Source: Tildeniella torsiva UHER 1998/13D
Lineage (GTDB): Bacteria > Cyanobacteriota > Cyanobacteriia > Phormidesmidales > Phormidesmidaceae
Length of the DNA: 64,000 nucleotides
Reading direction: 5' to 3'
Assembly: GCA_019358835.1 (NCBI GenBank)
Contig: JAHHIH010000001.1
Span: 1-64,000, forward strand
The position numbers were made by a program, and so were the translations under genes. Each line of letters starts with the position of its first letter. The first letter of the stretch is position 1. This document shows, in pieces, positions 40,275 to 62,133 of the stretch. The notes below the pieces were generated by a model that did no database searches, was not told where the DNA came from, and saw only the letters and a list, made by a program, of their open reading frames with translations.

Positions 40275-40342
40275 GTCACCTTCATATCCCCCCATTCCCC
40301 CAGGGCAGACACATAGGTCTGCTCCTACTCACCCACCCATCC

Positions 40343-40366
40343 ACGCACCCACGCACCCACGCACCC
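40343..40366. repeat. Three tandem copies of the 8-bp unit ACGCACCC
   Basis: The unit repeats exactly at 40343-40350, 40351-40358 and 40359-40366, with related ACCCACCC sequence just before. It fills the short gap between the adaptor and permease genes and ends 13 bp before the permease ATG, in the place of a ribosome-binding site. The tract could vary in length by slippage. Confidence 0.85.
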
Positions 40367-40379
40367 ACTCTCCTCCCCC

Positions 40380-55085: not shown

Positions 55086-55514
55086 ATGACTCAGCCCCGA
55101 TCGCGCAATCGCAACCGGTCTAAACGGCGGAGCATTCTTTGCCCCATCCATGACAATTATCTCGACAGCGTCAGCCAAAAATATCCTCTTTTTGCCACCA
55201 AACCTGAGCATTTGCAACAGAGCGGGCTGAGCCGTCGGGCGGCCTTTACGCTGATTGCGAGCTTGGGTACGGTTCCCCTTCAGGGGGAATGGCTAGAAGC
55301 TTTTTGGTGCGATCGCTGCCAATCAACCCAGTGGTACCACGTGCGCAAGACTGAATCTAATTTATACACCCTCTGCACGGTACCAGAAGCGCTCTGGATG
55401 CAGGTCGCTGGGGTAATTTTGCCCACCGGCAACCCCACCGTAGGCGAGTTTACCCGCCGTCAGGCGCGGCAGACTACCTACGGCGGCGTGAAGGATTTTT
55501 ACCGGATGGGGTGA
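55086..55514 (+). CDS. Conserved cyanobacterial protein with CxxC motif, unknown function
   Basis: The 142-residue soluble protein has a very basic N-terminus (RSRNRNRSKRRS), an early ILCPIHDNYLDSVSQKYPLF segment, a central SRRAAFTLIASLGTVPLQGE and a WCDRCQSTQWYHV segment with a CxxC pair. CPIH and CxxC could jointly bind one zinc ion. The pattern is of a small zinc-ribbon-like protein. I think it is a known cyanobacterial hypothetical family, but I give no function. It stands between the WecG-like gene and gmd. Confidence 0.72.
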   Translation: MTQPRSRNRNRSKRRSILCPIHDNYLDSVSQKYPLFATKPEHLQQSGLSRRAAFTLIASLGTVPLQGEWLEAFWCDRCQSTQWYHVRKTESNLYTLCTVPEALWMQVAGVILPTGNPTVGEFTRRQARQTTYGGVKDFYRMG

Positions 55515-57013: not shown

Positions 57014-57112
57014 TGAGGATACGTTTCACGGAGTTGCAACCCCCTATTGTTCGCAGAGCCAAATAACCCATTGGAGCCCGCCGTACGTGCTGTTCAACAC
57101 TCTGGTAGACCC

Positions 57113-57811
57113 ATGTTTCAGTTCTTATTTTGCTCCCCAAAGGAATATCATGCGGCCCTAAACGAAGACTTAATTGTTCCAGATACTGTGCAGCTGGCAC
57201 CCATTCATCCATCGGTCAACTCGGTCTTAAAGCGATGCCTAGATATAGTTGGTGGTTTGGCAGGAGTTTTAATCACGCTACTCTTGTTGGTGCCCATTGC
57301 CGTTGCCATTCAGCTTGATAACCCTGGCCCGGTCTTCTTTAGCCAGCTGCGCTGTGGGTACCAGGGGCGACCCTTCCGCATTTGGAAGTTTCGCTCGATG
57401 GTGGCCAATGCCGATGAGCTAAAACATCTAGTAGAAAACCAGGCCCAGGGGCTGATCTTTAAAAACGACAATGACCCTCGCATTACCCGAGTGGGCAAGT
57501 TTTTGCGGCGCACCAGTCTAGACGAGTTCCCTCAGTTTTGGAATGTGCTGTGGGGAGACATGAGCCTGGTGGGCACGCGCCCGCCGACGGTGGCGGAGGT
57601 GCGACAGTATGAGCCTCACCACTGGCAGCGGCTAAATGTGAAGCCGGGGCTAACGGGCAAGTGGCAGGCCCAGGGGCGATCGCACATCAAAGATTTTGAG
57701 GCGATCGTCAAGATGGATATTGACTACCAGGCTCAGTGGTCTTTGGGGCACGATGTGATGCTGATTTGGCAGACGGTGGGCGCGGTGGTGCTCAGCCGAG
57801 GGGCTTATTAG
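57113..57811 (+). CDS. Initiating sugar transferase (WcaJ/ExoY/RfbP type)
   Basis: The ~232-residue protein transfers the first sugar-1-phosphate onto undecaprenyl phosphate at the inner membrane. It has one membrane segment (~residues 43-65, VGGLAGVLITLLLLVPIAVA), then the bacterial sugar-transferase motifs GPVFFSQLRCGYQGRPF, FRIWKFRSMVANAD, RRTSLDEFPQFWNVL, MSLVGTRPP and PGLTGKWQ. It lacks the N-terminal four-helix part of large WcaJ, so it is of the short ExoY type. The ATG at 57113 is preferred over an upstream TTG. It follows the nested repeat and gmd in the same orientation. Confidence 0.93.
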   Translation: MFQFLFCSPKEYHAALNEDLIVPDTVQLAPIHPSVNSVLKRCLDIVGGLAGVLITLLLLVPIAVAIQLDNPGPVFFSQLRCGYQGRPFRIWKFRSMVANADELKHLVENQAQGLIFKNDNDPRITRVGKFLRRTSLDEFPQFWNVLWGDMSLVGTRPPTVAEVRQYEPHHWQRLNVKPGLTGKWQAQGRSHIKDFEAIVKMDIDYQAQWSLGHDVMLIWQTVGAVVLSRGAY

Positions 57812-58293
57812 GGCAGTCGGGGTGCGCTATGAGAAGCCTTCCAGAGCAGCGCTTTTGGTTTGAGAAACGCGGGCTAAGGCTGGGGGTATGATCCGGGCCG
57901 CTACCGGATGGTCGAAGGCAAATGGCTGATCGCTCTACCGACTGCCGAACTTTAAAGCTGCCTGAGCACTCACCCCATCCGGATAGTTTTGACATTTTGC
58001 AAAAATTTTCACATCGGGCTAAACCCTAGGGAAAGTACGGAGAGATAGGACTAGGTATCCGGAGAGGGCCATTTACTCTTGTAAAGGAAGATAACAACTC
58101 AAGCACATTCCCTTTTTGAAAGGGCCTTTTGCAGAGGGGCTTTGATGGTCGTCTTAGATCTCAGTCTCTTTGCCCTGTACTAGAACGCTCCTTAGGCGAT
58201 CGGGCAGAGTATGGGATAGGTGTGCCTAAGCGTTGCTCTCACTAGAGGTAGCACTTGTATCGCCTAAAGAGTTCAGCAAAAGACTACATAAAT
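57812..58293. other. Intergenic region leading into the 21-bp tandem array
   Basis: About 480 bp without a credible ORF. It holds several short G-rich/C-rich half-repeats (for example GAAAGGGCCTTTTGCAGAGG near 58119) and one HIP1-like site near 58197, but no clear terminator or RNA gene. Confidence 0.4.
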
Positions 58294-58524
58294 GCAAAAG
58301 ATGGTTTGAGCTGTTGTTTACATGGCTTATAGGCTGCGACGCATTTCATAAGCATTTCTTGAAATGGCTTAAACATCGGTAAGGAGGGCTTAAACCTTTC
58401 AGCGGAAGCTATAAGTGTTTTAATGGAAGCCTTATAGGTTGCAAAGAAAGCTATAAGCATTTCAAAGAAAGGCTTAAGCCGTGCAAAGAAAGCTTTAATG
58501 CTTTTTAGCAAGGGCTTAATGCCT
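58294..58524. repeat. Degenerate 21-bp tandem array, about 11 copies
   Basis: Eleven consecutive 21-bp units can be aligned without gaps from 58294 to 58524. Units 8-11 (from 58441) are best kept, with a GCAAAGAAAG start and a G-C-T-T-A-T-A/A-A-G core. Units 1-7 are more diverged but keep the gCTTA core. The exact multiple of three keeps a reading frame open on the minus strand: a TTG-started frame (58583 down to 58284) reads heptads of the form [IFLY]-K-P-x-x-x-x, for example IKPLLKSIKAFFARLKPFFE. A plus-strand frame is broken by stops in older units. No ribosome-binding site is seen for either, so coding is uncertain. Confidence 0.8.
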
Positions 58525-58684
58525 TGAGGGGATTTTCGGATCTTTTTGGAGGTGCAGCTAAAAACCAACCTAAAAGGATCCAAATTTATACGGTGATGAT
58601 AGGCTTAAGGGCTTGGCTACAGTGTGGAGGTTGGAACTGGTACCAACACTGTTGTTTATTAATGCCAGGGAGCATTTACGGTAT

Positions 58685-59044
58685 ATGAGACGCAAAAGAT
58701 TATCTGCAACGTTAGGAAAGGCTGAGGTGCGGGCTGCATCCATGGACTCGATTCTGCCGAATTTAGATTTGGGTAATGGACTAACGCTAGAGATGTACTG
58801 GGAGGCGATTAATGCTTTGCGGCTCAAGCAGCAGCAGTATAATTCGCTACTATCGAAGGTGGATAACCTATACAACGAGATGCTGGCGGAGGAGCGAGCG
58901 CTGGGTGAAATGTCGGAGCATATGCTGAGCGGGGTGAAGGTAAAGTTTGGCCGCGACAGCTATGAGTATGAGATGGCGGGGGGTGTTCGGCGCTCTGATC
59001 GCAAGCGACCTCAGCGGAAGGTGGCAGCAATGCCGACAGTTTAG
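58685..59044 (+). CDS. Conserved cyanobacterial protein of unknown function (RRKRLSATL family)
   Basis: The ~119-residue protein starts MRRKRLSATLGKAEVRAASM, followed by LDLGNGLTLEMYWEAINALR, a helical segment rich in Gln, Leu and Glu, and a C-terminal KFGRDSYEYEMAGGVRRSDR plus a basic tail. It is soluble and helical, with a coiled-coil tendency in residues ~40-85. I recall similar small proteins with the GRDSYEYEMAGG-type motif in many cyanobacterial genomes, always hypothetical. AGGGAG upstream supports the ATG at 58685 over a TTG at 58613. A strong terminator follows it. Confidence 0.75.
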   Translation: MRRKRLSATLGKAEVRAASMDSILPNLDLGNGLTLEMYWEAINALRLKQQQYNSLLSKVDNLYNEMLAEERALGEMSEHMLSGVKVKFGRDSYEYEMAGGVRRSDRKRPQRKVAAMPTV

Positions 59045-59340: not shown

Positions 59341-60438
59341 ATGAAAATATGGCATTTTGGAGCGTCTCCGTCGCCCGATGATGTTAACGGAGTAAACACA
59401 GCAGTCTGGCTCATTGCCCAAGAACAGGTAAGTCTAGGCCACGAAGTTACACTAATATTAGAAAGTATTCCTAATAAGTCTACAAGCCTTTTCGCCAATA
59501 TGATAGGTTTAAATATTGCCTATATCAAAACAAGCAGGTATTCATACGATGCATTTATGATTGACGCATTACTAGAATCAGGCTTTCCGGACTTGATACA
59601 CCTCCATTCTATTTTCCTTTTAAACCAATTCTTCTTAGCAAAGAAGATATTCAAAAACAGAATTCCATACATAATTACTCCTCATGGGGGATTAAATTTT
59701 AGCCGTAGTAAACTCAAGAAGCAAGTGTTTAGCCTGCTTTTTGAAAAAGAAAAGATGTACAAGGCATCAGCTATCACAGTGGTCACGCCAAGAGAAGCAG
59801 ATAGAGTATGCAGCTACCTGCCTAGGTATAATCAGCCAATCCGCTGGATACCAAATCCTTTTAATGTATCTCGCCTAAATGGAAGAGCTTGGAAGAGAGA
59901 TACAACATCAAAGAAAGTCATCTTTCTGGGGCGTTTTGATGTTCTCCAAAAAGGAATAGATATTTTGGCAAAAATTGCATATTTATCACCTGAATTCGAT
60001 TTTCACCTTTATGGAAGAAAAGATCGTAAGACAGGAAATGAGCTGCATAAAATCCAGCAGGATTGCCCAAAAAACCTACACTTTCATGATCCTATCTACG
60101 GGGAAGAGAAACTCGATCTACTCTCAGAAGCTTCTATATATATCCAAACATCTCGATGGGAGGGTTTCCCAATGTCAATTGTTGAAGCAATGTATTTAGG
60201 TTTACCCTGCGCTATTTCAGAATGCCTAGACATGGCTGAACTTTTTCGCGAAAAAGGGCTGGGCGTACTTTTGTCAACAGATCCTAGAGTAGCTTCGCAA
60301 CAATTGGCAGATGCTTTTAGAAATCCAAAAGGTTTTGAAAGTTTTTCAGAAACTTCTAGACAATTTGCCATCTCATGCTTTAGCCCTTTTAATGTAGCAA
60401 AGCAATATCTAGATCTCTATGAAGAAGTCTTATCTTGA
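59341..60438 (+). CDS. GT4-family glycosyltransferase
   Basis: The ~365-residue protein has the GT-B fold pattern: N-terminal MKIWHFGASPSPDDVNGVNT, a central PYIITPHGGLN, then VIFLGRFDVLQKGIDILAKI, and the C-terminal donor-site segment TSRWEGFPMSIVEAMYLGLP with the E-x7-E-type glutamates. Retaining GT4 enzymes add hexoses from nucleotide sugars; the donor cannot be told. The ATG at 59341 fits the usual family start. Base composition is clearly more AT-rich than in the preceding 50 kb, as in the next three genes. Confidence 0.92.
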   Translation: MKIWHFGASPSPDDVNGVNTAVWLIAQEQVSLGHEVTLILESIPNKSTSLFANMIGLNIAYIKTSRYSYDAFMIDALLESGFPDLIHLHSIFLLNQFFLAKKIFKNRIPYIITPHGGLNFSRSKLKKQVFSLLFEKEKMYKASAITVVTPREADRVCSYLPRYNQPIRWIPNPFNVSRLNGRAWKRDTTSKKVIFLGRFDVLQKGIDILAKIAYLSPEFDFHLYGRKDRKTGNELHKIQQDCPKNLHFHDPIYGEEKLDLLSEASIYIQTSRWEGFPMSIVEAMYLGLPCAISECLDMAELFREKGLGVLLSTDPRVASQQLADAFRNPKGFESFSETSRQFAISCFSPFNVAKQYLDLYEEVLS

Positions 60439-60696: not shown

Positions 60697-62133
60697 ATGA
60701 GTCTAAAAAATAAGGCTATTAAAGGAGTTTTTTGGTCAGCGCTTGAAAGCTGGGGTCACCAAATTATTTCTTCTATAGTATTTTTTGTGCTTGCAAGGCT
60801 TCTAGGGCCAGAATCATTTGGACTCATCGCTTTAGCTAGTGTATACATTGCCTTTATCGGCATTTTCTCGGGGAGTAGTCTATCTTCTGCCATTGTCCAA
60901 AGAGCAGACTTGGAGCCAGAGCATTTAGATACTGCTTTTTGGACTAGCCTCCTTATAAGTATTGCTTTGACCCTGGTTAGTTTTACCCTAGCTGGTTGGA
61001 TCGCAATCTTATTTTCTGAACCGACTCTCAAATCTATTGTGAGGTGGCTCTCTATTAGCTTATTAATCAATGCTTTTAGCGATGTTCAGCAGGCTATCTT
61101 TCAAAGAAATATGGACTTCAGAGCGCTTTCTATTCGCTCTTTGGTCGCAACGACTGTTAGCGGAATTGTTGGGGTAACAATGGCTCTAACCGGATCTGGA
61201 GTGTGGAGCCTAGTTGGACAGCAACTATCTAGCTCCTTAACAAAAGTCTTGGTTTTATGGTGGGTCAGCACTTGGCGACCAAGGTTGAAGTTTTCTAAAA
61301 GCCACTTTAAAGAGTTGCTTAGCTTCAGTATTAATGTCACGGGCTCTAGTTTCACAAACTTTTTTAGCCGCCGATCTGATGACTTACTAATTGGCTATTT
61401 TTTAGGGGCTACGGCTTTGGGATATTATAGCGTAGCCTACAAGCTGCTCTTAATGATGATTGACTTGTTTTCTCGTGTTTTGGAAAAAGTGGCTATGCCA
61501 ATATTTTCAAAGCTACAGAATGAGCCAACTAGAATTCGAGAAGCGTTCTACCAGGTAACTCAAACAGCAAGTTTGATTACTTTTCCGGCATTTATCGGTG
61601 CAGGGATTTTGGCACCGGAGCTAATACTAATTTTCTTTGGAAACCAGTGGGGGGAAAGCATCCCTATCATGCAAATTTTGGTTTTTATTGGAATTTTACA
61701 GTCACTAAGTATTTTCAATAGCACTGTTCTGTTAGCAATGGGTAAACCAGATTGGAGGTTCGCCTTAGGCTTATTTCTAAGCATAACAAATGTAATTTGT
61801 TTTGCGATTTCTGTTCATTGGGGGATAAAAGCGGTTGCCCTAGCTTACGTAATTAAAGGATACTTGTTATCACCAATATCCTTGAGTCTGATAAAAAAAT
61901 TGATAAAAATCAGCTATCTGAAGTATGTTAGCCAACTGTATGCTCCAGCTGTATGTACATTAATCATGACTTTAGGAATCGTTGTTACCAAATACACCTT
62001 TGCTGATCAGATTAATTCTATATGGTTACTTTTGTGCTGTGTTTCTATAGGAACAATTATGTACTCGTCATCACTATTTTTAATATTTCCTTCAAAGTTT
62101 AAGAAAACAATTTCTTACTTCTACTCAACTTAG
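60697..62133 (+). CDS. Wzx/WzxC-type oligosaccharide flippase
   Basis: The 478-residue integral membrane protein has 12-14 hydrophobic helices and the MOP-superfamily start KNKAIKGVFWSALESWGHQI, then GPESFGLIALASVYIAF, the SSAIVQRADLEPEHLDTAFW segment and, near the middle, FSRRSDDLLIGYFLGATALG. It should flip lipid-linked oligosaccharide repeat units to the periplasmic side. It lies 258 bp after the GT4 gene; the gap has no credible ORF. The AT-rich composition suggests a common origin with the neighbouring glycan genes. Confidence 0.92.
   Translation: MSLKNKAIKGVFWSALESWGHQIISSIVFFVLARLLGPESFGLIALASVYIAFIGIFSGSSLSSAIVQRADLEPEHLDTAFWTSLLISIALTLVSFTLAGWIAILFSEPTLKSIVRWLSISLLINAFSDVQQAIFQRNMDFRALSIRSLVATTVSGIVGVTMALTGSGVWSLVGQQLSSSLTKVLVLWWVSTWRPRLKFSKSHFKELLSFSINVTGSSFTNFFSRRSDDLLIGYFLGATALGYYSVAYKLLLMMIDLFSRVLEKVAMPIFSKLQNEPTRIREAFYQVTQTASLITFPAFIGAGILAPELILIFFGNQWGESIPIMQILVFIGILQSLSIFNSTVLLAMGKPDWRFALGLFLSITNVICFAISVHWGIKAVALAYVIKGYLLSPISLSLIKKLIKISYLKYVSQLYAPAVCTLIMTLGIVVTKYTFADQINSIWLLLCCVSIGTIMYSSSLFLIFPSKFKKTISYFYST

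Follow-up and report, generated by a model that had tools for sequence, protein, structure and literature searches.

Eleven 21-bp imperfect palindromes kept in register between cyanobacterial species: a candidate cis-regulatory element in an exopolysaccharide locus

Introduction

Intergenic tandem repeats are common in filamentous cyanobacteria, where those known as STRR have 7-bp units. Heptamer repeats of other kinds have been described too, cyanobacteria included (PMC4679880). The stretch analysed here (the window) comprises the first 64,000 nucleotides of contig JAHHIH010000001.1 from Tildeniella torsiva UHER 1998/13D and contains an intergenic array of 21-bp repeats, which lies in an exopolysaccharide (EPS) gene cluster between a sugar transferase gene and a small gene that we call ORF_B (Table 1). 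The original prediction offered two readings of this array: a noncoding minisatellite, or a fast-evolving heptad-repeat protein read from the minus strand. Is the array either of these, and what keeps it in place?

Results

The array consists of imperfect palindromes in an EPS locus

The array had been predicted to have a 21-bp period over about 230 bp, and both hold: 11 units follow one another in register. When lags of 5–60 were scanned, the period assigned was 21, and over lags of 10–63 only 21, 42, and 63 stood out. Self-identity was 0.54 (210 bp) or 0.61 (126 bp) at lag 21 and 0.63 at lag 42. The contrast that had been drawn with the 7-bp STRR is thus a fair one; the array further differs from STRR in being palindromic and of fixed copy number. 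TRF by itself called only 58427–58498 on the right-hand side (3.4 copies), because the left copies are degenerate. The right copies had been taken to be younger. They are indeed alike, but the right half is also the best conserved portion between species (identity to the three closest relatives 0.85–0.89, vs 0.80–0.83 on the left), and the likeness would reflect constraint at least in part. Since the species compared have the 11 units in common, the array is likely to be old.

Each unit has dyad axes near its positions 10.0 and 20.5. The mean Watson-Crick partner fraction of the window units was 0.51, vs 0.41 with unit columns permuted (3 of 500 permutations). Against the same kind of control, the counts per 500 were 0 for the homologous array in genome G011, 1 each for G018 and G004, 6 for G010, and 2 for the second of three copies in G007 (G007b); palindromy was weak in G017 (32), G007a (45), and G007c (31). 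A CRISPR array was rejected, the units being contiguous and without spacers. Neither the array nor the upstream element E1 (see below) is described in the literature searched.

Upstream of E1, the less conserved region with two TCCGGA boxes is probably the promoter; a sigma-70 scan gave no site in it. The start of ORF_B was chosen within a 143-aa ORF. ORF_B is 76–87% identical over at least 112 residues at seven loci; it matched no Pfam or NCBIfam family and had a weak match to PHROG 10538 (E 0.0087). A short CACC/CACCCACG tandem repeat is also present in the window, at 40330–40368.

Table 1. Features of the array locus and related genes, in window coordinates.
Feature	Position	Strand	Remarks
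142-aa CxxH/CxxC protein	55086..55514	+	uncharacterised family
Bacterial sugar transferase (EPS glycosylphosphotransferase-like)	57047..57811	+	upstream neighbour
Region with two TCCGGA boxes	57977..58110	+	less conserved, upstream of E1
E1 core	58129..58177	+	candidate structured RNA motif, ~110 bp upstream of the array
Stretch between E1 and array	58178..58286	+	0.81–0.86 identity to three closest homologs
ORF, 99 codons, TTG start	58284..58583	-	judged not a gene
21-bp repeat array	58287..58524	.	11 imperfect-palindromic units + 7 bp; consensus on + strand AAGCGTTTCAAAGAAAGGCTT
Tail of array module	58525..58600	.	76 bp; 1–4 indels in each of 10 homologs
ORF_B	58688..59044	+	118 aa; first gene downstream of the array
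Family-4-type glycosyltransferase	59341..60438	+	downstream neighbour
Polysaccharide flippase-like protein (Polysacc_synt_3)	60697..62133	+

Copy number and register are fixed between species

Searches with the translated minus frame gave matches in 9 of 57 genomes, the window's own included, and searches with the array DNA in 9 of 63 genomes covering the whole family; all matches of either kind fell in one genus. The core pattern was also found in the named records Nodosilinea sp. LEGE 06152 and FACHB-131 and Phormidium tenue FACHB-1052, in one Leptolyngbya MAG, and in two records labelled 'filamentous cyanobacterium'. To judge from the named records, the genus carrying the array is probably Nodosilinea.

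Twelve copies were compared: those of the window, G011, G018, G004, G017, G010, G009, G020, and LEGE 06152, and G007a, b, and c. Ten of them have exactly 11 units, and MAFFT alignments contained no indels among these ten; G009 has a single 42-bp (two-unit) deletion, and the G020 array is 22 bp shorter through a 21-bp gap and a 1-bp gap. Aligned to the window with G020 excluded, nine of ten homologs carry 33–68 substitutions each in 238 bp without any indel, the tenth being G009. The tail that follows is indel-prone (Table 1), but some tail indels are common to several homologs and hence not independent events, so the contrast between tail and array is smaller than the raw counts. The minisatellite reading therefore fares unevenly: its noncoding part stands, whereas a repeat of variable number does not agree with a count that stays at 11 in ten of the twelve copies across species. 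Copy number, whose comparison among related strains had been proposed as a check, showed no change between species apart from the 42 bp missing in G009 and the 22 bp missing in G020, and we do not take the array for an unstable minisatellite.

In the closest comparisons the array also changes slowly. Array identity to G011, G018, and G004 was 0.86, 0.83, and 0.82, vs 0.67, 0.65, and 0.62 at fourfold-degenerate sites of the flanking genes (n 448–453). Corresponding values were 0.71 vs 0.58 for G017 (n 86) and 0.66 vs 0.55 for G009 (n 44), and in G010 the array (0.79) was hardly above the fourfold sites (0.76, n 147). The spacer (0.81–0.83) and the leader (0.82–0.87) show about the same conservation as the array in the three closest genomes.

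E1, array, and ORF_B follow one another in G011, G018, G004, G017, G009, and LEGE 06152, as they do in G010, where additional DNA separates them, and in G020, where just the end of ORF_B was matched. In G007a, E1 is missing, and the array and ORF_B directly follow the sugar transferase. G008 has E1 and ORF_B and lacks the array with its surroundings (window 58228–58705 has no counterpart); this species can thus do without it. E1 was matched and no array was matched in G013, G024, G001, and G006. Directly behind E1 in G001, at the place of the window's 21-bp array, stands a 7-bp STRR-like array (L044 6440–6610). The two further copies in G007 lie near other genes, and the genes next to G007c are on the strand opposite to the array, which speaks for a DNA element free of orientation. 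A second, diverged array occupies the same gap between two glycosyltransferase genes in the window's own genome (C28:237679) and in G004. Related arrays in G010, G007 (C48), and G009 adjoin genes that are by eye not EPS-like; with these and the copies lacking E1, the array is only partly associated with EPS genes and E1.

Putative protein-bound DNA sites fit better than RNA hairpins

DNA sites best account for the units' dyad symmetry and kept register, for copies that face either way relative to their neighbours, and for the weak covariation within units. We therefore favour, still short of even confidence, the reading of the array as a conserved noncoding cis-regulatory element of the EPS locus, composed of dyad sites that a protein would bind. 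The main rival is that the array works as RNA: a plus-strand leader of about 500 nt, starting from near E1, would carry a string of hairpins controlling the ORF_B/EPS mRNA at the level of elongation, stability, or translation.

The array lies downstream of E1 on the plus strand, as this rival needs, and both strands fold better than shuffled sequences (plus, z -2.66, with 4 of 200 shuffles as good; minus, z -2.85, 2 of 200). Pairing within units exceeded the across-unit mean in eight of nine arrays, but the excess is weak: 39–713 of 1000 permutations reach it, the strongest case being G011 (39 of 1000). Wobble pairs, counted as G-T vs A-C, were 84:64 and 93:68 for the two dyads, a lean to the plus strand that is only slight. 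Long perfect stems are present as well. The arms of perfect inverted repeats measure 20 bp in G018, G004, and LEGE 06152, 14 bp in G007a, and 15 bp in G007c, while resampled arrays reach 14-bp arms in just 5 and 2 of 1000. With G018 and G004 counted as one event, such repeats occur in about four lineages, yet stems and folds alike sit at differing places among homologs. A folded RNA should moreover tolerate indels in its loops, and none were found in 10 of the 12 copies. The units are palindromic, but with covariation within them so weak there is no firm sign that they are kept individually as RNA hairpins, and a unit-hairpin RNA was not favoured. On balance, an RNA function of the array is possible but rather unlikely.

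For protein-bound DNA sites, the long inverted repeats would be by-products of replication, arising through template switching between units. Stems of this kind have been documented to arise by template switching (PMC8794818). Inverting a unit leaves the register intact because the units are dyad-symmetric.

A functionless repeat, and other arrays of the same period

Next among the rivals is a functionless repeat, neutral or selfish, whose regularity would be created and maintained by slippage and template switching. It gains from the additional G007 copies, from the missing array in G008, and from the existence of other intergenic arrays whose period is a multiple of 21. In 863 kb of the window's own genome, 5 of 11 intergenic arrays with a period of at least 9 are of this kind; the two contigs surveyed were not picked blind, one holding the 58287–58524 array and the other the diverged array at C28:237679, and without both the count is 3 of 9. 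Elsewhere the counts were 0 of 2 in G008 (400 kb), 1 of 3 in G009 (280 kb, leaving out stretches L130–L135, chosen partly through earlier matches), and 1 of 2 in G045 (400 kb), whose array looks coding by eye. Against a neutral origin, the array evolves less quickly than synonymous sites do when the closest genomes are compared, and its copy number and register are fixed. We consider neutral persistence unlikely.

Tested per 500 column permutations, other arrays of this period were palindromic in L134 (5), L027 (9), C28:325675 (25), and L086 (49), and not palindromic in L130 (228), C24:375205 (435), L149 (84), L084 (281), L085 (160), and L087 (318); coding controls gave 38, 361, and 449.

Several of these arrays can be described individually. 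C24:375205–375621 (L125 11205–11621) of the own genome has a 21/42-bp period, about 20 units, and an unrelated unit sequence, and a G009 array (L149 8781–9128) is similar to it. C28:325675–326040 (L106 5675–6040), also of the own genome, has a 21-bp unit that holds CTCGG-CATT-CCGAG, and a 109-aa open frame there ends at the start of the next gene. L027 2220–2450, from another genus (G029), is a palindromic 21-bp array with the unit GAGAGTGATCAAGACTCTCTA and a lag-21 identity of 0.82. The own genome further contains an array of 36-bp period and 0.92 identity (C28:127113–127496), possibly a CRISPR or another repeat.

The minus-strand frame does not behave as a protein

The prediction that the minus frame is open over 99 codons proved correct, from a TTG start, as did that of stops on the plus strand, whose three frames hold 2, 4, and 13 stops over 58287–58583. 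Such an open frame says little, because at least one of six frames was open for 75 codons or more in 68% of 2000 simulated arrays drawn, phase by phase, from the window's own units.

The tests that had been suggested, of dN/dS (here as pN/pS) and of frame preservation, were both run. G020 is the one copy of the 12 in which a gap inside the array departs from a multiple of three. No constraint on amino acids was seen. Over all pairs of the ten full-length arrays (G009 and G020 excluded), pN/pS in the minus frame was 0.98, the highest of the six frames (range 0.62–0.98), and it was 0.53–1.11 in 11 single pairs. Column entropy across eight sequences was 0.545, 0.614, and 0.416 at the three codon positions, the third being lowest; in single pairs the third position is not always the least changed (21, 21, and 23 differences between the window and LEGE 06152). 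The frame meets a stop inside the array after 44 codons in G017 and after 16 in LEGE 06152. Only 2 of 11 copies (window and G007a) offer a start codon ahead of the array, and G009 has no start codon in this frame. The product matched no accepted Pfam or PHROGs family, the LXG score of 15.5 bits lying below the cut-off of 26.5.

Two observations favour a protein beyond the kept register. A start-type codon four codons into the array is retained in 10 of 11 copies, and the minus frame is stop-free in 8 of the 10 full-length arrays. Stops are rarer than expected under four of five nulls: seven stop-free homologs of nine were reached in 0, 0, 8, 5, and 286 of 1000 trials, counts that ignore relatedness. 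We read this depletion as a residue and not as support for coding. The array is very probably noncoding, and the heptad-repeat protein, for which pN/pS, in-array stops, and an unshared start are all unfavourable, is very improbable.

Mobile elements and known repeat classes

Hardly credible is a small, non-autonomous MITE-like element carrying the array: a module of ~285–310 bp does recur at the two extra G007 loci and is absent at the G008 site, but inspection of the flanks by eye revealed neither sharp ends in common nor inverted terminal repeats nor target duplications, and the window array as query matches one array in its own genome, the diverged second being found through another query. 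Phage or plasmid origin was rejected, as no match was found.

REPs are described as 20–40 bp long, of high copy number, and with characteristic tags (PMC3733652). REP/BIME elements resemble the array in their palindromic units and intergenic position; unlike them, the array is tandem. We rejected this class since, in place of high copy number, the own genome yielded the one match and its diverged relative.

Iterons and centromere-like arrays are ~20-bp repeats in helical register that serve as sites for a cooperative protein. Those of plasmid origins and partition sites are like the array in repeat length and helical register; the array differs in lying in a chromosomal EPS locus, with no replication or partition gene among its identified neighbours, and it had no plasmid match. 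An iteron array was rejected on these neighbours, which are EPS genes, next to ORF_B of unknown family.

E1 is a candidate structured RNA widespread in the class

The E1 core combines an outer stem, a conserved GGGCUUU internal loop, and a nearly invariant hairpin, GAYGGUC..GAUC-UCA-GUC. A model of E1 matched 69 of 242 genomes of the cyanobacterial class at E 0.01 or better, spread over 46 of 120 genera. Its covariation score exceeded all 500 shuffles and all slid controls, at 0.231 in alignment A2 and 0.199 in A3, with relatedness not removed and A3 leaning towards the E1 structure to which it was fitted. A register-free test of the outer stem gave 0 of 2000. This stem pairs in just 72% (A2) and 62% (A3) of cells, pairs changed on both sides and further pair types were not above shuffles, and one slid control had more cells changed on both sides than E1. 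The inner hairpin barely varies. A mini-ORF within E1 (MVVLDLSLFALY, ATG at 58145) was rejected, its ATG reading ACG in G017, G009, G020, and G008.

At 14 of 20 loci examined, E1 lies upstream of a gene for a homolog of the 142-aa protein (Table 1), and in 13 of those 14 the gene starts 43–87 bases after the GGTC of the motif; the 20 were taken from the best-scoring 30 E1 loci, the other ten being in genomes already represented. Sixteen sequences of the 142-aa family share 36 invariant positions, among them a CxxH and a CxxC pair and EWLEAFWC, and neither the window member nor the family profile matched Pfam, NCBIfam, PHROGs, or PDB sequences. The window's own 142-aa gene is without an E1 motif: GATCTCAGTC occurs only once in the window, at 58157.

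Discussion

Eleven 21-bp imperfect palindromes are held in exact register over species divergence, mostly behind the RNA-like E1. In the mechanism that we favour, the units would be putative dyad-symmetric binding sites, spaced two helical turns apart along a single face of the DNA. The putative partner, a dimeric protein, would occupy them cooperatively, and the bound array would control transcription of a sub-operon starting with ORF_B. Selection would then act on exact spacing more than on the sequence itself, and both point changes and inversions of units would be tolerated as long as the dyad is preserved.

E1 and the array may also be considered as one composite leader. E1 would be an undescribed, class-wide cis-regulatory RNA that the 142-aa protein may bind, recruited in Nodosilinea to an EPS sub-operon with the array as a downstream control platform. 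Conserved leader elements of surface-polysaccharide operons offer an analogy, namely JUMPstart/ops and epsC (EAR); epsC is given for Bacillales and JUMPstart for gamma-Proteobacteria (PMC2864571). In Rfam 15, neither the array (up to E 5, whatever the family) nor E1 had a match. In G007a the array and ORF_B occur but E1 does not, and other genomes have E1 and no array, which lowers the standing of the composite leader, and we propose it as a doubtful possibility.

As an intergenic tandem repeat, the array conserves its spacing rather than its number of copies or a coding frame, and it bears traces of template switching. Selection on helical register can be put to the test here. E1 may be the more important find. 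Were it a real regulatory RNA, the 142-aa family and some polysaccharide loci across cyanobacteria would share a control signal that is absent from Rfam 15.
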